Below are positions 4,893 to 46,325 of a stretch of DNA of 64,000 nucleotides, piece after piece. Source of the DNA: an uncultured Dehalococcoidia bacterium (GTDB lineage: Bacteria; Chloroflexota; Dehalococcoidia; Lucifugimonadales; CATOSD01); contig CATOSD010000002.1 of the NCBI GenBank assembly GCA_951812395.1, positions 1,292,442 to 1,356,441 of the forward strand, in the 5' to 3' direction. The translations under genes and the position numbers were made by a program. Position 1 is the stretch's first letter, and every line of letters begins with the position of its first letter. The notes beneath the pieces are model-generated. The model was given only the letters and a program-made list of their open reading frames with translations, had not been told where the DNA came from and searched no databases.

Positions 4893-6233
4893 CTACCCGC
4901 CGGCTCGAAACAGCGAAAACAGCTCCCCTACGCTTTCCACCTCTTCCAGCGCCCACAGCCGGGCGAGCGCGCGCTCGACCTGGGCTTCGGAAAGGGTGCG
5001 GCCCGCGAGGGCACGGAACTTGCTCTCGAGCTGATCATCGCTCATAGGATTCTCCGGCGTGCCCGTCGCGTGCTCAACGACCTCTGTCAGCTCCCGTCCG
5101 TCATTCAGCACCACGGTCACCTCGGCGGAGCCCTCCTCTTGGGTCTCGTCCACCGTCGCGGATATCAGGTCCCGCAGCCGCATGATCTCGGGGTCGACCA
5201 CACGCTCGTCGGTGTACTGCGCCGGAAACGCTGCCCCGTCCACCAATCCCACGGCCATGCTGTGCTGGTACGAGAACTTGCCTTCCAACCCTACCCTGGG
5301 ATTGGGCCTGTCGACGAGCTCGAGTACAAGAGGGTGCACCATAGCCCGCACGCTCTCGACCATATCGGCGGTGACGCCATGCGAATCTCGAAAGCGCGCC
5401 ATGGCGTCGATCAGCGGATGGTTGACGACCCCGCAAGCGTATGGCTTGAGGCCGTTCTGGTACAACTCCCAATGATCTCCCAGCCTGTCGGTCGCGCGGC
5501 CCAGGTCGCTCTCCGCCGAGTAGACTTCGGTGAAGCCGCGCCTGCCCTCCAGTATCTCTGTGGTGGAGGTGAAGCCCCGGCTGGCCAGCAGGGCCGCCAG
5601 CACGCCGCTCTGAGCGGACCGCCCCGGATGTAGCGGCTTGGTCATCGAACCGAAAGAAACGCGAAGTCCGGACGCCTGTGCTCCGGCGACTCCCAGCGCC
5701 TGCGCCATGCGGTCGGTGTCCATGCCCAGCAGCCTACCCGACGCGGCGGCCGCGCCGAACACACCGCACGTGCCGGTGATGTGCCAGCCTTCGTTATAGT
5801 GGGCGGGGTGAACGGCCATTCCGATGCGGCACGTAATCTCCATGCCAATCACCGAGGCGGCGAGCGCGCGGCGTCCGTCGGCGCCGATCCGTTCAGCGAC
5901 GGCAAGCGCCGCGGGAAAGGTGGGTGCGGATGGGTGGATGATCGTCGGGAAATGCGTGTCGTCGTAGTCATCCAGATGGGCGAGGTAACCATTCGCCAAC
6001 GCGGCATTCTGCATAGATGTCCGTGCGGCAGCGCCGACGACCGACGCGCTGGCATTGCCACCCTCTTCGCGGAACACGTCCAGCAGTATGTTCAGCGAAG
6101 GGTCTCTCGAAGCGTAAAGCGAAACGGCGAGGTAGTTGATGAGGCACCGCTTGCCCTCGTGCATGAGGCGCTCGGGCAGCGCCTCCACGTCAGTTTCCAC
6201 GACGAATCGGGCGATGTCTTGGGTTGCTCCCAT
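4893..6233 (-). CDS. MmgE/PrpD family protein (2-methylcitrate dehydratase-like)
   Basis: 446 residues, the normal length for MmgE/PrpD. The N-terminal helical domain carries FVVETDVEALPERLMHEGKRCLINYLAVSL, and the middle contains ANGYLAHLDDYDDTHFPTIIHPSAPTFPAALAVAE, the family signature around the acidic/His active-site region. Known members dehydrate 2-methylcitrate or isomerise itaconate and related tricarboxylates. The exact substrate here is unknown. Because a CoA-transferase follows directly, a role in carboxylic acid catabolism is likely. A second paralogue lies at 32712. Start ATG at 6233. Confidence 0.87.
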   Translation of the reverse strand: MGATQDIARFVVETDVEALPERLMHEGKRCLINYLAVSLYASRDPSLNILLDVFREEGGNASASVVGAAARTSMQNAALANGYLAHLDDYDDTHFPTIIHPSAPTFPAALAVAERIGADGRRALAASVIGMEITCRIGMAVHPAHYNEGWHITGTCGVFGAAAASGRLLGMDTDRMAQALGVAGAQASGLRVSFGSMTKPLHPGRSAQSGVLAALLASRGFTSTTEILEGRRGFTEVYSAESDLGRATDRLGDHWELYQNGLKPYACGVVNHPLIDAMARFRDSHGVTADMVESVRAMVHPLVLELVDRPNPRVGLEGKFSYQHSMAVGLVDGAAFPAQYTDERVVDPEIMRLRDLISATVDETQEEGSAEVTVVLNDGRELTEVVEHATGTPENPMSDDQLESKFRALAGRTLSEAQVERALARLWALEEVESVGELFSLFRAGG

Positions 6234-6662
6234 GGATGTTGTCCTCTTCCCTCGCGTGAGCTATGGCCATGCGCCATTGAAGCGTGAGTGTAAGGCGGCG
6301 GTCAGAGGCTGTCAACGAAACGGCCTGTCGCGAGTCTGTTTCAGATTTCCAGGTGCGCTCAAAACCGTCTCCCTCGCCAACAGCCCGTCCCCGCGCCCGT
6401 CTCTTTACCTGCCGCCATCCCCATGCGTTCGCCATGTTGTCTGGCCAATGTCCCCCGGCGCCTCGACGCACACCCCGGCCGCACTCACTCGCCTACATCC
6501 GACCCTTTCGCCCCCCTGCACCCCGAGAAAACCGTCACTTTCCCGCGCCGCCCGTGTACCGACCTTGACACGCATCTGACACGCATACGTCCCCCACAAG
6601 CCCCACGACTGCGCCGTTTCTTCCCACCAATCCGGCCCAGTCACGCAATCTCGCCAACGCTC

Positions 6663-6691
6663 TTGAAAGTACCGCACATACGTGCTACCCT
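6663..6691 (+). promoter_or_regulatory. Conserved extended -10 promoter with CACATACGTGC spacer
   Basis: TTGAAA, a 17-base spacer and TACCCT preceded by TGC. The spacer half next to the -10 reads CGCACATACGTGC, nearly identical to sites at 45946 and 58165. A GCCA-containing stretch precedes the -35 at all three. It would drive the GC-rich segment downstream (6698-6953). Confidence 0.5.
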
Positions 6692-6697
6692 CGACCA

Positions 6698-6953
6698 GGC
6701 GAGGGACAGACCCCGCCGGCCCGGAATCCTATACCCCCAGTCGGGATTATGCCCCAGGCATCCGCAGGGGCCTCATGTACTGGCCACTGCCCACCGACCC
6801 CGCTGTCCTGTTCTGCCAGGCGGCGCGACACATGTGCCCGGATATGCCCCGCCGGGCATTACAGATTCGCGCAGGACCGGCGACACTCTCAGCTACGAGG
6901 TGCACAGAATGTCGCAGAATCTAACAGAAAATCGCTTCCCCGCATTCGCGGGG
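6698..6953 (+). ncRNA. Candidate structured RNA segment shared with 45981-46325
   Basis: Downstream of the promoter-like site this region aligns with the one at 46015-46260 without a shared open frame. Shared blocks include ATGCCCCAGGCAT against ATGCCCCAAGCAT, GCGACACATGTGCCC against GCGACACTTATGCCC, and the end block GAATGTCGCAGAATCTAACA. It closes with a CCCCGC-attc-GCGGGG hairpin at 6938-6953. Both strands contain stops in this copy. A non-coding RNA or a repeat-internal sequence would both fit; I do not recognise a known RNA family. Confidence 0.3.
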
Positions 6954-7121
6954 CCAACGGTTGGGGGGAGTAGGGTAATCTGAAACAGGTTCTGCCTGTC
7001 GCTCCTCACGTCGCTAGACGGCTGCGAGGCAGGCCGTGTACCATCTGCGGGGCGCGGGCAATGCCCGTCGTAAGGCGCCGACGGCTTAGTGAGGGCAGCA
7101 CCACAACGAGGGGATGAAGGC

Positions 7122-8093
7122 ATGGATGGACTTGCAAACGCGCACCTGGCGGCAATCAGCGAGAGCATCCGTTTTCTGCGAAGCGTAGACTTCTGGTCGC
7201 CGGATTTGCGTTCGGAACTTTTCGGGCTCCAGGACTCGCTTCCGGCCCCAACGGCGCCGGAGACAGCGGGCGAACGGGACGTTGGCTCCTCGCAGTCTTT
7301 GGAGGCCGCGCTTTCCGTCGCCAAGGCCGCTGTCGCTTCAGTCGACGCGCTGGCGGCGCGCCTGGGCGCCGGAATCGACGCAGAGTTGGCCGCGCGCACA
7401 AGTGACGTGCTCGCACGGGCGGCGGACCATGCGGCGGCGAAGGTACGGGCATCGGCGGCCGACAGGGTGCGGGGGCTGTACGTCATAGTCGACCCGGAGG
7501 TGACGAGGGGTCGCCCGATACTGGACGTCGCCGAAGCCTCGTTAAAGGGCGGCGCCAGCGTAGTGCAACTTCGGGACAAATCGCGAGACAAGGGTGAGAT
7601 GCTGCCAGACGCCATAAGACTACAGGCGATGTGTGAGGACTACGGCAGCCTGTTCGTGGTCAACGACGACGCCGACCTGGCCCGAACCGTCAGCTCCCAC
7701 GCTGTGCACGTGGGCCAAACCGACCTGCCGGTTGCCAGTGCCCGCGCTGTGCTCGACGCGAGGCAGCTCGTGGGCACTTCCAACGGCGGCGTAGACGAGG
7801 CGCTACGTTCGCAGGCGGAAGGAGCGGACTACGTAGCCGTGGGCGCCATCTTCGCCACCACCACGATGGGCAAGAGCGGGCGAAGGTCCCTGGGCGTCGA
7901 GGCCATCGCTGAGGTCAAAGATGCCGTATCGATGCCCGTAGTCGCAATTGGGGGAATCAGCCTGGGCAACATCACCGACGTCGTAAGCGCGGGCGCGGAC
8001 AGCGTGTGCGTGGTCAGCGCGGTTACCTTTGCCGATGACCCGGAAACTGCCGCGGCGCGCCTGGTAGAGGCGATGCAGGCGGCGTCCGCCTGA
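7122..8093 (+). CDS. thiE: Thiamine-phosphate synthase with N-terminal helical extension
   Basis: ThiE joins HMP-PP and thiazole phosphate to give thiamine phosphate. The TIM-barrel part (about residues 117-320) has GLYVIVDP, ASVVQLRDKSRDKGE, FVVNDDADLA, AVHVGQTDLP, ADYVAVGAIFATTTM and VVAIGGIS, all expected substrate and Mg-diphosphate loops. The first 110 residues are an added alpha-helical region; LANAHLAAISESIRFLRSVDFW resembles the N-terminal domain that precedes ThiE in some phyla (ThiD2-type HMP-P kinase), but the match is by eye. I chose ATG 7122, preceded by GGGGATGAAGGC, over the GTG at 7089. No TPP riboswitch was recognisable upstream; the element at 6336-6988 lies immediately before it. 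Confidence 0.9.
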   Translation: MDGLANAHLAAISESIRFLRSVDFWSPDLRSELFGLQDSLPAPTAPETAGERDVGSSQSLEAALSVAKAAVASVDALAARLGAGIDAELAARTSDVLARAADHAAAKVRASAADRVRGLYVIVDPEVTRGRPILDVAEASLKGGASVVQLRDKSRDKGEMLPDAIRLQAMCEDYGSLFVVNDDADLARTVSSHAVHVGQTDLPVASARAVLDARQLVGTSNGGVDEALRSQAEGADYVAVGAIFATTTMGKSGRRSLGVEAIAEVKDAVSMPVVAIGGISLGNITDVVSAGADSVCVVSAVTFADDPETAAARLVEAMQAASA

Positions 8094-8172: not shown

Positions 8173-9102
8173 GAAACTATCTCAGAATCCTGACCCACAA
8201 ATACATTGGCTGGTTTCTGGTCTGATTCATATAGTTTCTCCAAAGGCGTCGGGAGGAATCGTATGGGGAATGAGGAGACGTTAGGAACCATCTGGGAAGT
8301 ACCGGACGAGCTTTGGGAACGCATCGAGCCTATCATTCTGGAGCGAGACCCACCCAAGGCAAGGGGCCGCAAGCGCGCCAATCCTCGACAGATGCTCAAC
8401 GGCATCATCTTCCGGATGCGCAGCGGGTGTTAATGGAACCGATTGCCGAGAGAGCTTGGGGACGACAGCACGATCCATCGCACCTTTCAGAGGTGGGTGG
8501 AACGGGGAGTCTTGCGCCGAATGTGGGGAGCGTTGGTGGAGGGGTGCGAAGAGTTGGGCGGCGTGGACTGGGAATGGCAGGCTGCGGACGGCGCCATGGG
8601 CAAGGCACGTTTTGGGGGGACCTGATTGGGCCCAACCCGACGGACCGTGGCAAGGCTGGTAGCAAGCGGAGTCTCCTTGTGGATGGAGAGGGCGGCCCTT
8701 TGAGCATTGCGGTTGCGGGAGCAAACGTCCATGACGCCAAGTTGTTGGAGGCGACCCTTTCCGCCATTGTGGTCAAGCGGCCGCAGCCCAGGGAGGAGGA
8801 ACCCCAACACCTGTGTCTGGACAAAGGGTATGACAATCCTTCGGGGCGTCGGGCTGCCGCCGGACACGGCTATCGGGAGCACATCCGACGCATCGGAGAG
8901 GAGAAGCTGGACGGCTCTGGACAGAAGCGGTATCCGGCGCGTCGGTGGGTTGTGGAACGGACGCTGGCATGGCTCTCAAAGTGTCGTGCGGTTCTGGTTC
9001 GCTACGATAAGAAGGCGTCGAACTACCTCGGAGTACTGCAACTCGCTTGCACGCTTCTGTGGTTCCGTCGTCAGTGGCGTCTGACTGTTTTGAGATAGTT
9101 TC
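8173..9102 (+). mobile_element. IS5-family (IS427-like) insertion sequence, copy 1, inactivated
   Basis: 930 bp bounded by terminal repeats GAAACTATCTCA (8173-8184) and TGAGATAGTTTC (9091-9102), flanked on both sides by TAA, a likely 3-bp target duplication. The second copy at 40984-41913 is the same length, inverted and nearly identical. Two-frame transposase organisation with a slippery TTTTGGGGGG is typical of the IS427 group. It sits 31 bp upstream of the -35 of the amino-acid ABC operon. Confidence 0.93.
8263..9098 (+). pseudogene. IS5-family transposase, copy 1, with nonsense mutation
   Basis: Reads MGNEETLGTIWEVPDELWERI from ATG 8263 (GGGAGGAATCGT ribosome site) and stops at a TAA at 8431-8433, where the intact copy at 41 kb has CAA (Gln). 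After the stop the frame continues to match copy 2. As in copy 2, a -1 shift at TTTTGGGGGG near 8610 is needed to join the N-terminal part to the C-terminal part ending 9098. Catalytic residues are otherwise present: Asp in WQAADGAMG, Asp in LCLDKGYDN, Glu in RWVVERTLAW. The nonsense codon makes this copy dependent on trans supply of transposase. Confidence 0.88.
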
Positions 9103-9245: not shown

Positions 9246-10403
9246 ATGTCAAAGGTCCTTAAGCTCTTCGCCATGGTGGCGCTTGCCGGGCTGGCTACTG
9301 TTGCAATCGCAGCCTGTGCCCAAGAAATGAGCGATGACGAGGTAATGGAGCGCGCTTCTGAATTGGGAATGATGACCGAGGCCGAAGCCGAAGCCATGGC
9401 GCCCGCCGAAGCCATGATGCCGGCGACCGGCGAAAGGCTCGCCCAGATCAAGAGCAGGGGCAAAGTCATCTGCGCCAGCCGCAATGATGTGCCCGGATAT
9501 GGCTACCTGGACAGTGGCGGCAACAACGTCGGTTTTGACATCGATCTCTGCCGAGCCCTGGCAGCCGCCGTGCTTGGCGACGCCAACGCCATCGAGATTC
9601 GCCTGATTACTGCGGCAGAGCGTGGTCCGACCGTTCAGTCTGGCGAGGTTGACATGCTGGTGCGCACGGTCACCTGGACTACTTCCCGGGACGCCCAGTG
9701 GGGCAACTATGCACAGACGATGTTCTACGACGGGCAGGGGTTCATGGTGTACAAGAGCCTCGGCATCGATAGCGCGCTGGACCTGAAAGACGCCACGGTC
9801 TGTGTGACGCAGGGAACAACGACCGAGCTCAACCTGCAGGACTTCTCGAACCAGAACGGCCTGAACATAACGCCGCTGACCTTCGAGGACACGGACGCGG
9901 TAGTGGCCGCCTACGAGAGCGAGCAATGCGACGCGTTCACCAACGACCGCTCTCAGCTTGCCGCGCTCGGCACGGCGCTCGCCGACAGAAGCGCTCACGT
10001 GATTCTCCCTGAGACGATCTCGGAAGAGCCGCTGGGGCCTGTGGTCCCACACGGTGACGACCAGTGGTTCGACATCGTAAAGTCCGTCATGGGCATTCTT
10101 ATCTACGCGGAAGCCTACGGTGTGACCTCGGAAAGCGTGCCATCCGCCGCTACCGGCGACACCAAGGTGGACAGGCTGTTCGGTCTGGAGGGGTCCTGGG
10201 GCCAGGAGAGCCTCGGCCTGAGCCAGACTTCCGCCCAGAACGTGATTCGCTCGGTGGGCAACTACGGCGAGATCTACAACCGCAACCTTGGACCGGACGG
10301 GATCGACCTGCCTCGGGAGAATGGCCGGAACGCGTTGTGGGCCTCTGCCACCTGCACCGACTGCCCCAAGGGCGGCCAGATATACGCGGCGCCTCTGCGG
10401 TAG
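9246..10403 (+). CDS. Polar amino-acid ABC transporter substrate-binding lipoprotein (AapJ/BztA-like)
   Basis: Captures amino acids outside the membrane and hands them to the permeases encoded downstream. Residues 1-24 form a signal peptide ending in the lipobox AIAAC, so Cys24 should be lipidated. An acidic linker (EMSDDEVMERASELGMMTEA) precedes the type-2 periplasmic binding fold, with LAQIKSRGKVICASRNDVPGYG, VGFDIDLCRALAAAVLGD, DMLVRTVTWTTSRD and DATVCVTQGTTTELNL, the signatures of the general L-amino-acid (AapJ) group. First gene of a four-gene operon driven by the promoter at 9134. At 385 residues it is longer than AapJ because of the linker. Confidence 0.92.
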   Translation: MSKVLKLFAMVALAGLATVAIAACAQEMSDDEVMERASELGMMTEAEAEAMAPAEAMMPATGERLAQIKSRGKVICASRNDVPGYGYLDSGGNNVGFDIDLCRALAAAVLGDANAIEIRLITAAERGPTVQSGEVDMLVRTVTWTTSRDAQWGNYAQTMFYDGQGFMVYKSLGIDSALDLKDATVCVTQGTTTELNLQDFSNQNGLNITPLTFEDTDAVVAAYESEQCDAFTNDRSQLAALGTALADRSAHVILPETISEEPLGPVVPHGDDQWFDIVKSVMGILIYAEAYGVTSESVPSAATGDTKVDRLFGLEGSWGQESLGLSQTSAQNVIRSVGNYGEIYNRNLGPDGIDLPRENGRNALWASATCTDCPKGGQIYAAPLR

Positions 10404-43799: not shown

Positions 43800-44095
43800 C
43801 TTCCTCCGAGACGCCATTGCGGCCCCATGGCGCGCCAGTTACCGGCCACCGAGCCGGTCACTCTGGCCCCAGAGCCCACTTTCTCGGCCCCGCGGTGCGC
43901 CATTTCCCGCCACACCCGGCCTATCCCGTTCCCGCACCCCACAACAAGTGTCACCCTCCCGCGCTACCCGTTCCCCGACCCTGCCCCACACACGCCCCCG
44001 ACACGGCCAACCCCTCCCCGACGCCTGCGCCGTTTCTCCCCACCAATCCGGCCCAATCCCCCAATTCCGCCCAAATCCACCGCCTAGTTGCAAAG
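43800..44095. repeat. C-rich repeat segment related to the element at 6336-6988
   Basis: Shares GCGCCGTTTCTCCCCACCAATCCGGCCCA with 6610-6640 (one C/T change near its centre), and alignable C-rich sequence before it. Very G-poor on the plus strand. On the minus strand both copies read GPDWW(G/E)ETAQ in a short frame, but neither frame looks like a normal gene. Ends where IS1380 begins. Confidence 0.65.
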
Positions 44096-44100
44096 GAAGG

Positions 44101-45735
44101 CCTCGTTGGAGCCGGCTGTAAAGCCGGCTATGATGGTAGTTATCAACAACAACCCATCACCAACGAGGTGCGACTATTAAGCAGCAAGCAACGCTTCCTT
44201 TCCACTACGCAGAGGAGACCGAGTCTACTGGTATGACGGCGTTGTCGGGGTTGCCGGCATACCTGGACCTGGCGTTTGTTGCGCGACTGGGGCAGTCGGT
44301 GCGCCGTCACGTGGGAGTGAGAGAGGGCACACAGGGGTGGACGGACGCCCAGAATGTGACGGCGCTTGTGATGCTCAACCTGGCCGGTGGTGAGTCGGTG
44401 GATGACCTGCGGCTGCTGGAGAAGGACGAGGGGCTGGGCAGGGCGCTGCTCACCGCGGAGACTCACGGGGTGCGGCGGGCAGAGCGCAGGGCGCAGCTCA
44501 GAAGGTGGCGTAAGGAGCGTAGCCGCACTGTGCCGTCGCCCACGGCGGTGTTCAGGTATCTGGACCGTTTCCACGACGAGGCTGAGGAGGCCGGGAGACG
44601 GTCTCGCGGCGCGTTCATACCGGCGGCCAACGACGCGCTGAGAGGGCTTGGGAAGGTCAACGCGGACCTGGTGAGGTTCGCGGGAGGCCATTCAGGACAC
44701 ACCGAAGCGACATTGGACATGGACGCCACGCTGATAGGGACGCACAAGCGGCAGGCGTGCTTCTGCTACAAAAAGCACAAGGCGTACCAGCCGTTGACCA
44801 CCTACTGGCATGAGGCGGACCTTGTGGTGCACTCCGAGTTCAGAGACGGCAACGTGAACGCGGGCTACGAACAGCTCAGGGTGTTGAAGGAGTCGCTGGA
44901 GTGTCTGCCCCCAGGGGTGAGCAAGGTGATGATGAGGTCTGACTCGGCGGGCTACCAGAAGGAGCTGTTGAAGTACTGCGCCGAGGGGCGGGATGAGCGG
45001 TTCGGAGTGATCGAGTTCTGTGTGGGAGTGAACGTGATGGCCGAGTTCAGGGCGGCGGTGAGTGAGGTAGAGGAGGAAGGATGGCACGACCTGTACAGGA
45101 CAGAGGGTGAGCAACGAGAGGCCACAAGACAGCAGTACGCCGAGGTGTGCTACGTGACCAGTTGGACGGGATACAGCAAGAACAGTCCCGACTACAGGTT
45201 CATCGCGATAAGGGAGCGTATGCCGAACCCGCCGCTGTTCGACATGGATGGGGAGAAGCTGTCGGTTCCCGTTATGGAGATGGGAGATGGCAAATTGTAC
45301 AAAGTGACAGGGATGGTGACGAACCGAGAGTTGCCTGGGGATGAGTTGGTCCGGTGGTACAGGCAGAGGTGTGGCAAGGGTGAGGAGGTGCATTCGGTGC
45401 TGAAGGAGGACCTTGCGGGGGGCAGGCTGCCGTCGGGGAAGTTCGGGTCGAACGCGGCGTGGTGGGCTATAGTGGTGTTGGCGTTCAATCTGAACTCAGC
45501 GATGAAGCGGCTGGTGTTGGGGGAAGAGTGGGCGAGCAAGCGTCTGAAGGCGGTGCGCTTCGGCGTAATCTGCGTTGCGGGGCGAGTGGTCAGACACGCA
45601 AGGAGGCTCATCATCCGTCTCGCGAGAGGACACCCAACCCATGACCTGCTCGTGAGTGCGCAACGCAGGATACACGCTCTGGCAAACACGCCGCTCCGGG
45701 CCTGATTCTCCTCAGGAATCCACCCACACTCGAGG
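44101..45735 (+). mobile_element. IS1380-family insertion sequence
   Basis: 1635 bp, the length expected for IS1380 elements. Begins CCTCGTTGGAGCC and ends CGAGG (its complement CCTCG), giving a short imperfect terminal repeat; the subterminal AGCCGGCT-gtaa-AGCCGGCT palindrome lies just inside. No target duplication could be confirmed, so the ends are provisional. Placed between two C-rich repeat segments. Confidence 0.7.
44176..45705 (+). CDS. IS1380-family transposase
   Basis: DDE transposase, about 509 residues if started at ATT 44176. The frame upstream of the track's ATG 44233 is open and reads IKQQATLPFHYAEETESTG before MTALSGLPAYLDLA; relatives in this family start with a basic stretch followed by LPF, so the true start is probably the ATT with GAGGTG seven bases before. 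DMDATLIGTHK holds the first Asp, VMMRSDSAGY the second, and RWYRQRCGKGEEVHSVLKEDL the Glu of the third motif. It looks intact. Confidence 0.85.
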   Translation: MKQQATLPFHYAEETESTGMTALSGLPAYLDLAFVARLGQSVRRHVGVREGTQGWTDAQNVTALVMLNLAGGESVDDLRLLEKDEGLGRALLTAETHGVRRAERRAQLRRWRKERSRTVPSPTAVFRYLDRFHDEAEEAGRRSRGAFIPAANDALRGLGKVNADLVRFAGGHSGHTEATLDMDATLIGTHKRQACFCYKKHKAYQPLTTYWHEADLVVHSEFRDGNVNAGYEQLRVLKESLECLPPGVSKVMMRSDSAGYQKELLKYCAEGRDERFGVIEFCVGVNVMAEFRAAVSEVEEEGWHDLYRTEGEQREATRQQYAEVCYVTSWTGYSKNSPDYRFIAIRERMPNPPLFDMDGEKLSVPVMEMGDGKLYKVTGMVTNRELPGDELVRWYRQRCGKGEEVHSVLKEDLAGGRLPSGKFGSNAAWWAIVVLAFNLNSAMKRLVLGEEWASKRLKAVRFGVICVAGRVVRHARRLIIRLARGHPTHDLLVSAQRRIHALANTPLRA

Positions 45736-45799
45736 CGACTGAACCGAAGTCGTCGGCTTCGCCGTGTCCGAAACTCGCCCAAAACCCTCCAACTACCCT

Positions 45800-46260
45800 C
45801 TCAGGAACCGCCTCACGCCCCCAGACCGTCGCATCGACCTTCCCCACGCCAACTGACCGGCCCCAAAACGCACATTCACCCTCGCCAACCCACCACACCC
45901 CCCCCCGCCGCGGTTAGGCGGTGGATTTGGGTTCCGCCATGGCTCTTGTAACATGCGTACATCCGTGCTATCATCGCTTTCGATAAGGGCGGGTCGCAAA
46001 CCCGCCGGCGTGACAGTCGCGCGGCCCGGAAGCATAACCCCAAATGGGATCATGCCCCAAGCATACGTAGAGGCGTCCCTTCCGAACGCCCTGCGGCAGC
46101 GAAGGTACGGCTGGCTGACCCTGCTCCGTCCGACTGTCCCACTCTGCCACGCGGTGCGACACTTATGCCCCGAACTGCCCACGCAGGCATTACAGAATTG
46201 CGAACGACAACCGAAACTCCCAGCTAGGGATTGCGCAGAATGTCGCGGAATCTAACAGAT
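45800..46260. repeat. Right-hand repeat segment related to the element at 6336-6988
   Basis: C-rich stretch (45830-45905), promoter-like site (45946), then a GC-rich block aligned with 6715-6930: GCGGCCCGGAAGCATAACCCC, ATGCCCCAAGCAT, GCGACACTTATGCCC, GCATTACAGA and GAATGTCGCGGAATCTAACA. No terminal repeat found on this side. It may be the other half of a copy split by IS1380, or a second partial copy. Confidence 0.6.
45946..45974 (+). promoter_or_regulatory. Conserved extended -10 promoter, copy 2
   Basis: TTGTAA, 17 bases, TATCAT preceded by TGC. The spacer ends GTACATCCGTGC, matching 6663 and 58165. Confidence 0.55.
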
Positions 46261-46325
46261 TTCGCCTTCCCGCCCCCATTCGTCATACCCGCGCACGCCG
46301 GAACACAGGAGGGCCGGCGTCTTTT
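45981..46325 (+). ncRNA. Candidate structured RNA, copy 2, ending at a terminator
   Basis: Starts after the promoter at 45946. Contains GGGCGGGTcgcaAACCCGCC near its 5' end, the blocks shared with 6698-6953, and ends at ACGCCGG...CCGGCGTCTTTT (46295-46325). No open frame with a ribosome site. A promoter and terminator around a conserved GC-rich core make an RNA product plausible, not proven. Confidence 0.35.
46295..46325 (+). terminator. Rho-independent terminator
   Basis: ACGCCGG (46295-46301), 12-base loop, CCGGCGT (46314-46320), then CTTTT. Upstream of the fur-like gene's own promoter. Confidence 0.65.

Follow-up and report, generated by a model that had tools for sequence, protein, structure and literature searches.

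Mobile elements of two unrelated kinds lie at a fixed distance upstream of -35 boxes in an uncultured Dehalococcoidia bacterium

In the genome of an uncultured Dehalococcoidia bacterium, a large family of non-autonomous elements of about 660 bp, together with its shorter siblings, occupies a recurrent position relative to promoters: the -35 box begins 16 bp beyond an end of the element, a distance made up of the 9-bp target duplication plus 7 bp. An unrelated IS of the IS1380 family, which makes a 4-5-bp duplication, has its insertions centered on the same point. We read this pattern of insertions as promoter-targeted, perhaps RNA-polymerase-guided, transposition. The family was recognized from a single copy in the window, by which we mean the whole 64,000-nucleotide stretch of DNA analyzed, and was then followed through the surrounding genome (3.69 Mb in two contigs), where the stretches around the matches were read.

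A full-length element in the window

An initial annotation, made from the letters of the window, had described a C-rich, mobile-looking element at 6336-6988 with inverted ends and a direct repeat just outside. The inverted ends (GAGYCTGTTTCAGATTACC) and the GCCTGTCGC direct repeat can both be seen in the sequence, and the element is where it had been placed, although the limits given fell about 4 bp short at each end. It begins GAGTCTGTTTCAGATTTCC at 6332 and terminates GAAACAGGTTC at 6992, so that the true limits are 6332 and 6992/6993. The features of this locus are as follows.

6287-6315, minus strand: target promoter of the PrpD-like host gene (ORF 4893-6233), with -35 TTGACA at 6315-6310, a 17-nt spacer and -10 TACACT at 6292-6287
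6323-6331, no strand: left copy of the 9-bp target duplication GCCTGTCGC, in common with 6994-7002
6332-6992, plus strand: full-length 660-bp non-autonomous (MITE-like) transposon, matching profile positions 1-674 of 674 with 589 bits
6332-6353, plus strand: left TIR, family consensus GAGCCTGTTTCAGATTACCAGG
6663-6691, plus strand: internal promoter TTGAAA-N17-TACCCT with spacer dyad GCACATACGTGC (6674-6685), conserved in the family and reading towards the right end
6888-6936, plus strand: conserved block CAGCTACGAG..ACAGAATGTCGCAGA near the right end, containing the most conserved 15-nt window of the family (0.96), with related blocks in stand-alone promoter units
6971-6992, minus strand: right TIR, from end-motif and profile matches
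6994-7002, no strand: right copy of the target duplication, with one extra T at 6993
7089-8093, plus strand: thiE-like gene (thiamine phosphate synthase; NCBIfam TIGR00693 above cut-off), next on the right and co-oriented with the internal promoter

A dispersed family with common ends

When the genome was searched with the window element, about 40 other places scored, at 70-84% identity; in most of them the match covers the whole length and breaks off where the window element ends. Elements of about 660-680 bp with these ends and roughly 70-90% identity are present at no fewer than 57 dispersed places, and the context analysis described below took in at least 57 places. A profile built from 22 copies has 674 model positions, which most full copies span end to end (consensus ends GAGCCTGTTTCAGATTACC and GTAATCTGAAACAGGCTC); in the first loci analyzed, 42 copies cover 400 positions or more, and loci added later supplied others. 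The family ends are GAGYCTGTTTCAGATTACYAGG, and the end motif has 131 matches in the genome versus 0 for a reversed-pattern control. Given these counts and the roughly 40 places elsewhere in the genome, chance is excluded as the origin of the window element. Looked for within the genome, neither of the refuting outcomes named in the initial annotation (similarity extending well past the inverted repeats, or no other copy with matching ends) was seen.

The end motif is common to three size classes, of about 660-680 bp, 143-145 bp and 113 bp; one 120-bp copy is the long form with an internal deletion. Most of the 143-145-bp copies are nearly identical by inspection and are thus recent. A 9-bp duplication can be recognized around several of the long copies, and most of the short copies have a perfect one. 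One 145-bp sibling lies inside an IS5-type IS whose other copies are uninterrupted and hold a single ATGTTTGGG, that is, an empty site; such a site was found for this sibling and none for a 660-bp copy. Copy number, common ends, recurring 9-bp duplications, shorter siblings and the empty site of one of them all uphold the earlier view of the window element as a non-autonomous mobile element with a 9-bp duplication.

Several individual loci deserve mention. In four 660-bp copies (L041, L046, L049 and L106), an insertion of about 140-280 bp breaks the element near model position 100; the inserted pieces are probably short relatives nested in the long form. The starts of the two contigs (L023 on C2, L024 on C1) share identical sequence that includes one element copy, probably an assembly overlap and not two copies. 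The gene lexA has a further 660-bp copy, flanked by the duplication GTCAATTCA, immediately upstream of it (L045:1001-2470; G000:C1:1239075-1240540).

The long elements have the properties by which MITEs are recognized, namely TIRs common to many dispersed copies, a target duplication of constant length and no transposase gene inside. Length below 500 bp, a usual but not defining trait of MITEs, is exceeded by the long form (about 660-680 bp) and fits the 113-145-bp siblings. An autonomous partner is expected for a MITE and is not required by definition. None with the same ends was seen in this genome, nor in other genomes at the related loci that we inspected, and the unpaired end matches that we examined are short remnants. 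The same end motif is present in other families of the order (G022, G033, G042 and G190), where no recognized transposase lay between matching ends at the places checked.

Candidates for the mobilizing element were rejected in turn. Two loci with 2.0-2.5 kb between matching ends (L068 and L069), considered as autonomous copies, are MITEs interrupted by IS1380-type elements. No IS256 member was found in a search of the genome. The window also holds an IS5-family IS at 8173-9102 (NF033580 above cut-off), 31 bp upstream of a strong-looking promoter of the substrate-binding-protein gene at 9246; its ends are somewhat similar, but it makes a 3-bp duplication (TAA) and does not follow the promoter rule, and for these reasons we do not take it as the mobilizer. 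The 660-bp elements are very probably an old, once very successful non-autonomous (MITE-like) family, moved by a transposase not found in the genome and with insertion tied to promoters.

Insertion at a fixed distance from the -35 box

Insertion sites were scored by their matches to the TTGACA/TATAAT consensus, and a site was counted if at least 8 of the 12 positions agreed. The evidence for the promoter rule consists of the positions of surviving insertions. In the window, the target promoter agrees with the consensus at 6 of 6 positions in the -35 box and 4 of 6 in the -10 box, and its -35 box starts 16 bp outside the left end of the element; the PrpD-like assignment of the gene it serves is a weak NCBIfam match. 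Across the genome, an offset of 16 was found at 19 of 50 sites on the right side of 660-bp elements (Poisson P 9e-26), at 9 of 26 on the left side (Poisson P 7e-12) and at 12 of 18 sites of short elements (Poisson P 3e-18). Other offsets average 0.2-0.4 sites each, and for both long and short elements the score peaks only at 16. When only the -35 box is scored, this offset suits 18 of the 26 full-length sites and every other offset 5 or fewer. About one third of the 660-bp sites, mostly of older copies, are without a clear -35 box at offset 16. The position relative to the promoter is a fixed one, as in targeting of the Ty3 kind. This placement, the most important property of the elements, does not figure in the initial annotation.

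Related elements in three other families of the order obey the same promoter rule. No such peak was seen at two IS5-type elements of the same genome, in a comparison based on few sites.

An IS1380-family element shares the target point

The initial annotation had noted that parts of the element recur at 43800-44095 and 45800-46260. These prove to be one old copy, interrupted by an IS.

43890-44069, plus strand: left part of the old, decayed copy (nhmmer, model 159-319)
44070-45931, plus strand: IS1380-family IS of 1,862 bp, with 17-bp perfect ends CCCAAATCCACCGCCTA, transposase at 44233-45705 and 5-bp duplication TTCCG
45932-46282, plus strand: right part of the old, decayed copy (nhmmer, model 314-624)

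The match of this IS to NCBIfam NF033539 (224.5 bits versus a cut-off of 180) and to Pfam DDE_Tnp_1_4 identifies an IS1380-type DDE transposase. Its insertion point in the old copy lies 14 bp before the -35 box of the internal promoter. The IS has 23 full copies in the genome, at 98-99% identity and with 4-5-bp duplications, and five of them, some in one orientation and some in the other, occupy the equivalent point of separate 660-bp copies, immediately before the internal promoter. By reading, each of the 20 distinct sites has the TTG of a TTGACA-like box 13-14 bp outside one IS end, in most cases with a -10-like box after it; by score, 13 of 23 sites show a promoter at offset 14 (Poisson P 1e-17). 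A relative with 66% identity in a fourth family of the order follows the same rule at its one site. At three sites the IS is present as a tandem double insertion (L111/L115, L113/L117 and L114/L121) with nothing but the duplication, exactly 4 bp (AGCC or CCTA), between the two, an arrangement consistent with repeated hits at one promoter-relative point.

Although the two kinds of element differ in stagger, the center of the stagger lies about 12 bp before the -35 box in both (half of 5 bp plus 9 bp for the IS1380 element, half of 9 bp plus 7 bp for the 660-bp element), and both thus hit the same point. The center of the 9-bp stagger is roughly 48 bp upstream of the transcription start, so that the core promoter stays intact and the landing is in a safe site.

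The interior of the element

The left half of the element is C-rich and non-coding, and the G-poor tract described earlier is real and common to the family. Few parts of the family are as well conserved as the internal -35/-10 region, and parts of the region formed by the internal promoter and the right-end block are more conserved than the terminal repeats. The promoter-like site that had been pointed out in the window copy thus finds support in this conservation and in the landing of the IS1380 element there. Because the IS1380 element treats the internal promoter like host promoters, its insertions argue that this promoter works as such in the cell. Each 660-bp insertion would then bring its own promoter, usually reading into the next gene (thiE in the window), and may alter expression. 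The next gene downstream is co-oriented with the internal promoter in 54 of 57 copies, most of which lie between divergent genes; as co-orientation is automatic in that setting, we claim only a weak preference, from the tandem contexts taken by themselves (13 versus 3, p about 0.02).

Conservation of the internal promoter and of the block near the right end, and the existence of related stand-alone promoter units, would suit an element that exists to express a structured non-coding RNA from its own promoter, in line with the GC-rich structured core and carried RNA of the initial annotation. We consider this quite unlikely, and that part of the annotation did not hold up. The RNAalifold consensus of 41 copies had an energy of -16.7 kcal/mol across about 345 columns and received no covariation term, and the other strand was no better; no conserved fold with covariation emerged by this program from the whole element or its parts on either strand, or from 21 stand-alone units, and an Rfam search of the element gave no match. 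Nor is there a coding signal. Long plus-strand open frames in many copies could be taken as the remains of a decayed gene or autonomous IS, but the open frame varies from copy to copy, no codon-position periodicity appears across 42 copies, and the long frames are sufficiently accounted for by base composition, T being scarce on the C-rich strand. Such an origin is accordingly highly improbable, and the window element holds no transposase, as the annotation had said.

Stand-alone promoter units

Promoter units that stand alone occur at scattered places in the genome, and the right half of the 660-bp element is related to them. These intergenic units consist of TTGACA, GCACATNCGTGCTA in the spacer, a C-rich stretch whose length hardly varies from about 150 nt, and then CAGCTACGAAATGGAACAGAATGGAACA with 10-nt iterons. 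The window has one at 58220-57950 on the minus strand, in the gap between an alaS-like gene and another gene, and others are found at L139, L141, L153, L162, L165, L169, L170, L173 and further loci. With at most one mismatch, GCACATNCGTGCTA has 127 matches in the genome, a considerable share of them within 660-bp elements, against 1 for the control. In their spacer the units have a dyad (GCAC-N4-GTGC, and GAAC-N4-GTTC-like in relatives) that appears similar to a LexA/SOS box.

Two other genomes of the order have comparable units. In G003 (L213-L220 and L225), units with CAGCTACGAA motifs each have a different repeated word (ATGAGACA, AATGTCACA, ATTCGACA or CTCTACA) in direct and inverted orientation, and G010 (L206-L212) holds 102 near-identical units TTGACACCGCGAGAACAGCCGTGCTA. 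A scan of named genomes for units at 8-nt spacing (most units have 7 nt) gave seven scattered, chance-like matches, which carry no information on how widely the units are distributed. At L146:378-962 (minus strand) and L215:461-973, the unit promoter leads into an ORF with a helix-turn-helix-like stretch, for which HTH_Tnp_1_2 gave a weak, below-cut-off match in L146 and none in L215. The other promoter units may be degenerate heads of such genes.

What the transposition machinery may recognize

The insertion pattern can be read as follows. The transposition complex would be drawn to a promoter, perhaps via the bound RNA polymerase holoenzyme, and the insertion would fall immediately before the -35 contact, so that the core promoter is spared. 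Since no transposase was found for the 660-bp family, the targeting is not tied to a protein. We propose, tentatively and with our own opinion nearly evenly divided, that the promoter-bound holoenzyme may serve DNA transposons of this Chloroflexota lineage as a general landing platform, used by at least two unrelated systems of transposition, in a bacterial counterpart of Ty3 targeting.

A plausible alternative, though one we lean against, is that DNA sequence or shape is enough, with both transposases recognizing TTGACA or an adjoining bend directly and without RNA polymerase. The -35 box is indeed the strongest signal at both kinds of site. Two observations point instead to the whole promoter as the signal. 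At sites with a weak -35 box (three or fewer matches), a -10 box is still found at the right spacing, with 3.75 and 3.8 matches versus 2.48 and 2.78 at control offsets, a comparison that involves only 13 sites. Moreover, an unrelated IS1380 transposase with a 5-bp stagger has the same center as the 9-bp stagger of the 660-bp family. It is also conceivable that there is no targeting whatsoever, and that insertion is random with selection retaining the cases in which promoters are left intact; every site is intergenic or almost so, and none of the insertions disrupts the core promoter. Selection of this kind would allow a range of upstream positions and not one offset to the base, it would not account for the lack of such a peak at the two IS5-type elements in the same genome, and it sits poorly with tandem double insertions at the same point at three IS1380 sites. 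We regard it as very unlikely. Promoter targeting, perhaps guided by the bound holoenzyme, remains our preferred interpretation.

If it is true, an insertion locked upstream of the -35 box and common to two unrelated elements spares the host and spreads promoters. The insertion sites would constitute an in vivo map of the promoters of the genome, useful in an uncultured lineage, and the elements would offer a directly testable system for contact between transposase and RNA polymerase.

Comparison with known systems

By anatomy, the 660-bp element is a long MITE with a promoter, similar to the Correia type. Promoter-bearing prokaryotic MITEs include Correia/NEMIS, MITEAba12 and QMITE1 (PMC10969869), which share with the present family TIRs, target duplications, many copies, no gene, an internal sigma-70-like promoter and a location just upstream of genes. 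The window family differs from them in its length of 660 bp, against typically <500 bp, in its 9-bp duplication and in its insertion at a fixed base relative to the -35 box; the accessible part of that MITE review describes no fixed-offset -35 insertion rule. The IS of the window agrees with the IS1380 family in its NCBIfam score above cut-off and its 4-5-bp duplication, and differs by inserting 13-14 bp before -35 boxes. For IS1380, the portion of an IS survey available to us gives only gene-orientation statistics (PMC9208149).

In the openly accessible literature that was searched, we met no earlier case of bacterial elements inserting a constant distance ahead of the -35 box. Target choice by bacterial transposons is usually ascribed to a short sequence, to DNA shape or to a dedicated targeting protein. 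Tn7 targets a safe site that lies a set distance from a landmark of the host, and it has one main chromosomal site and a dedicated targeting protein. The 660-bp and IS1380 elements resemble it in the fixed distance from a host landmark and differ in using many promoters. The attTn7 site is mentioned in the part of the MITE review at hand (PMC10969869).

The yeast retrotransposon Ty3 integrates at a fixed position relative to promoters via promoter-bound TFIIIB and leaves the gene intact (PMC5911963). Here the elements are DNA transposons, the host is a bacterium, the promoters are of the sigma-70 type, and the likeness lies in the insertion positions. What the systems have in common, by functional likeness and not by kinship, is a fixed promoter-relative position of insertion that leaves the gene intact (PMC5911963).
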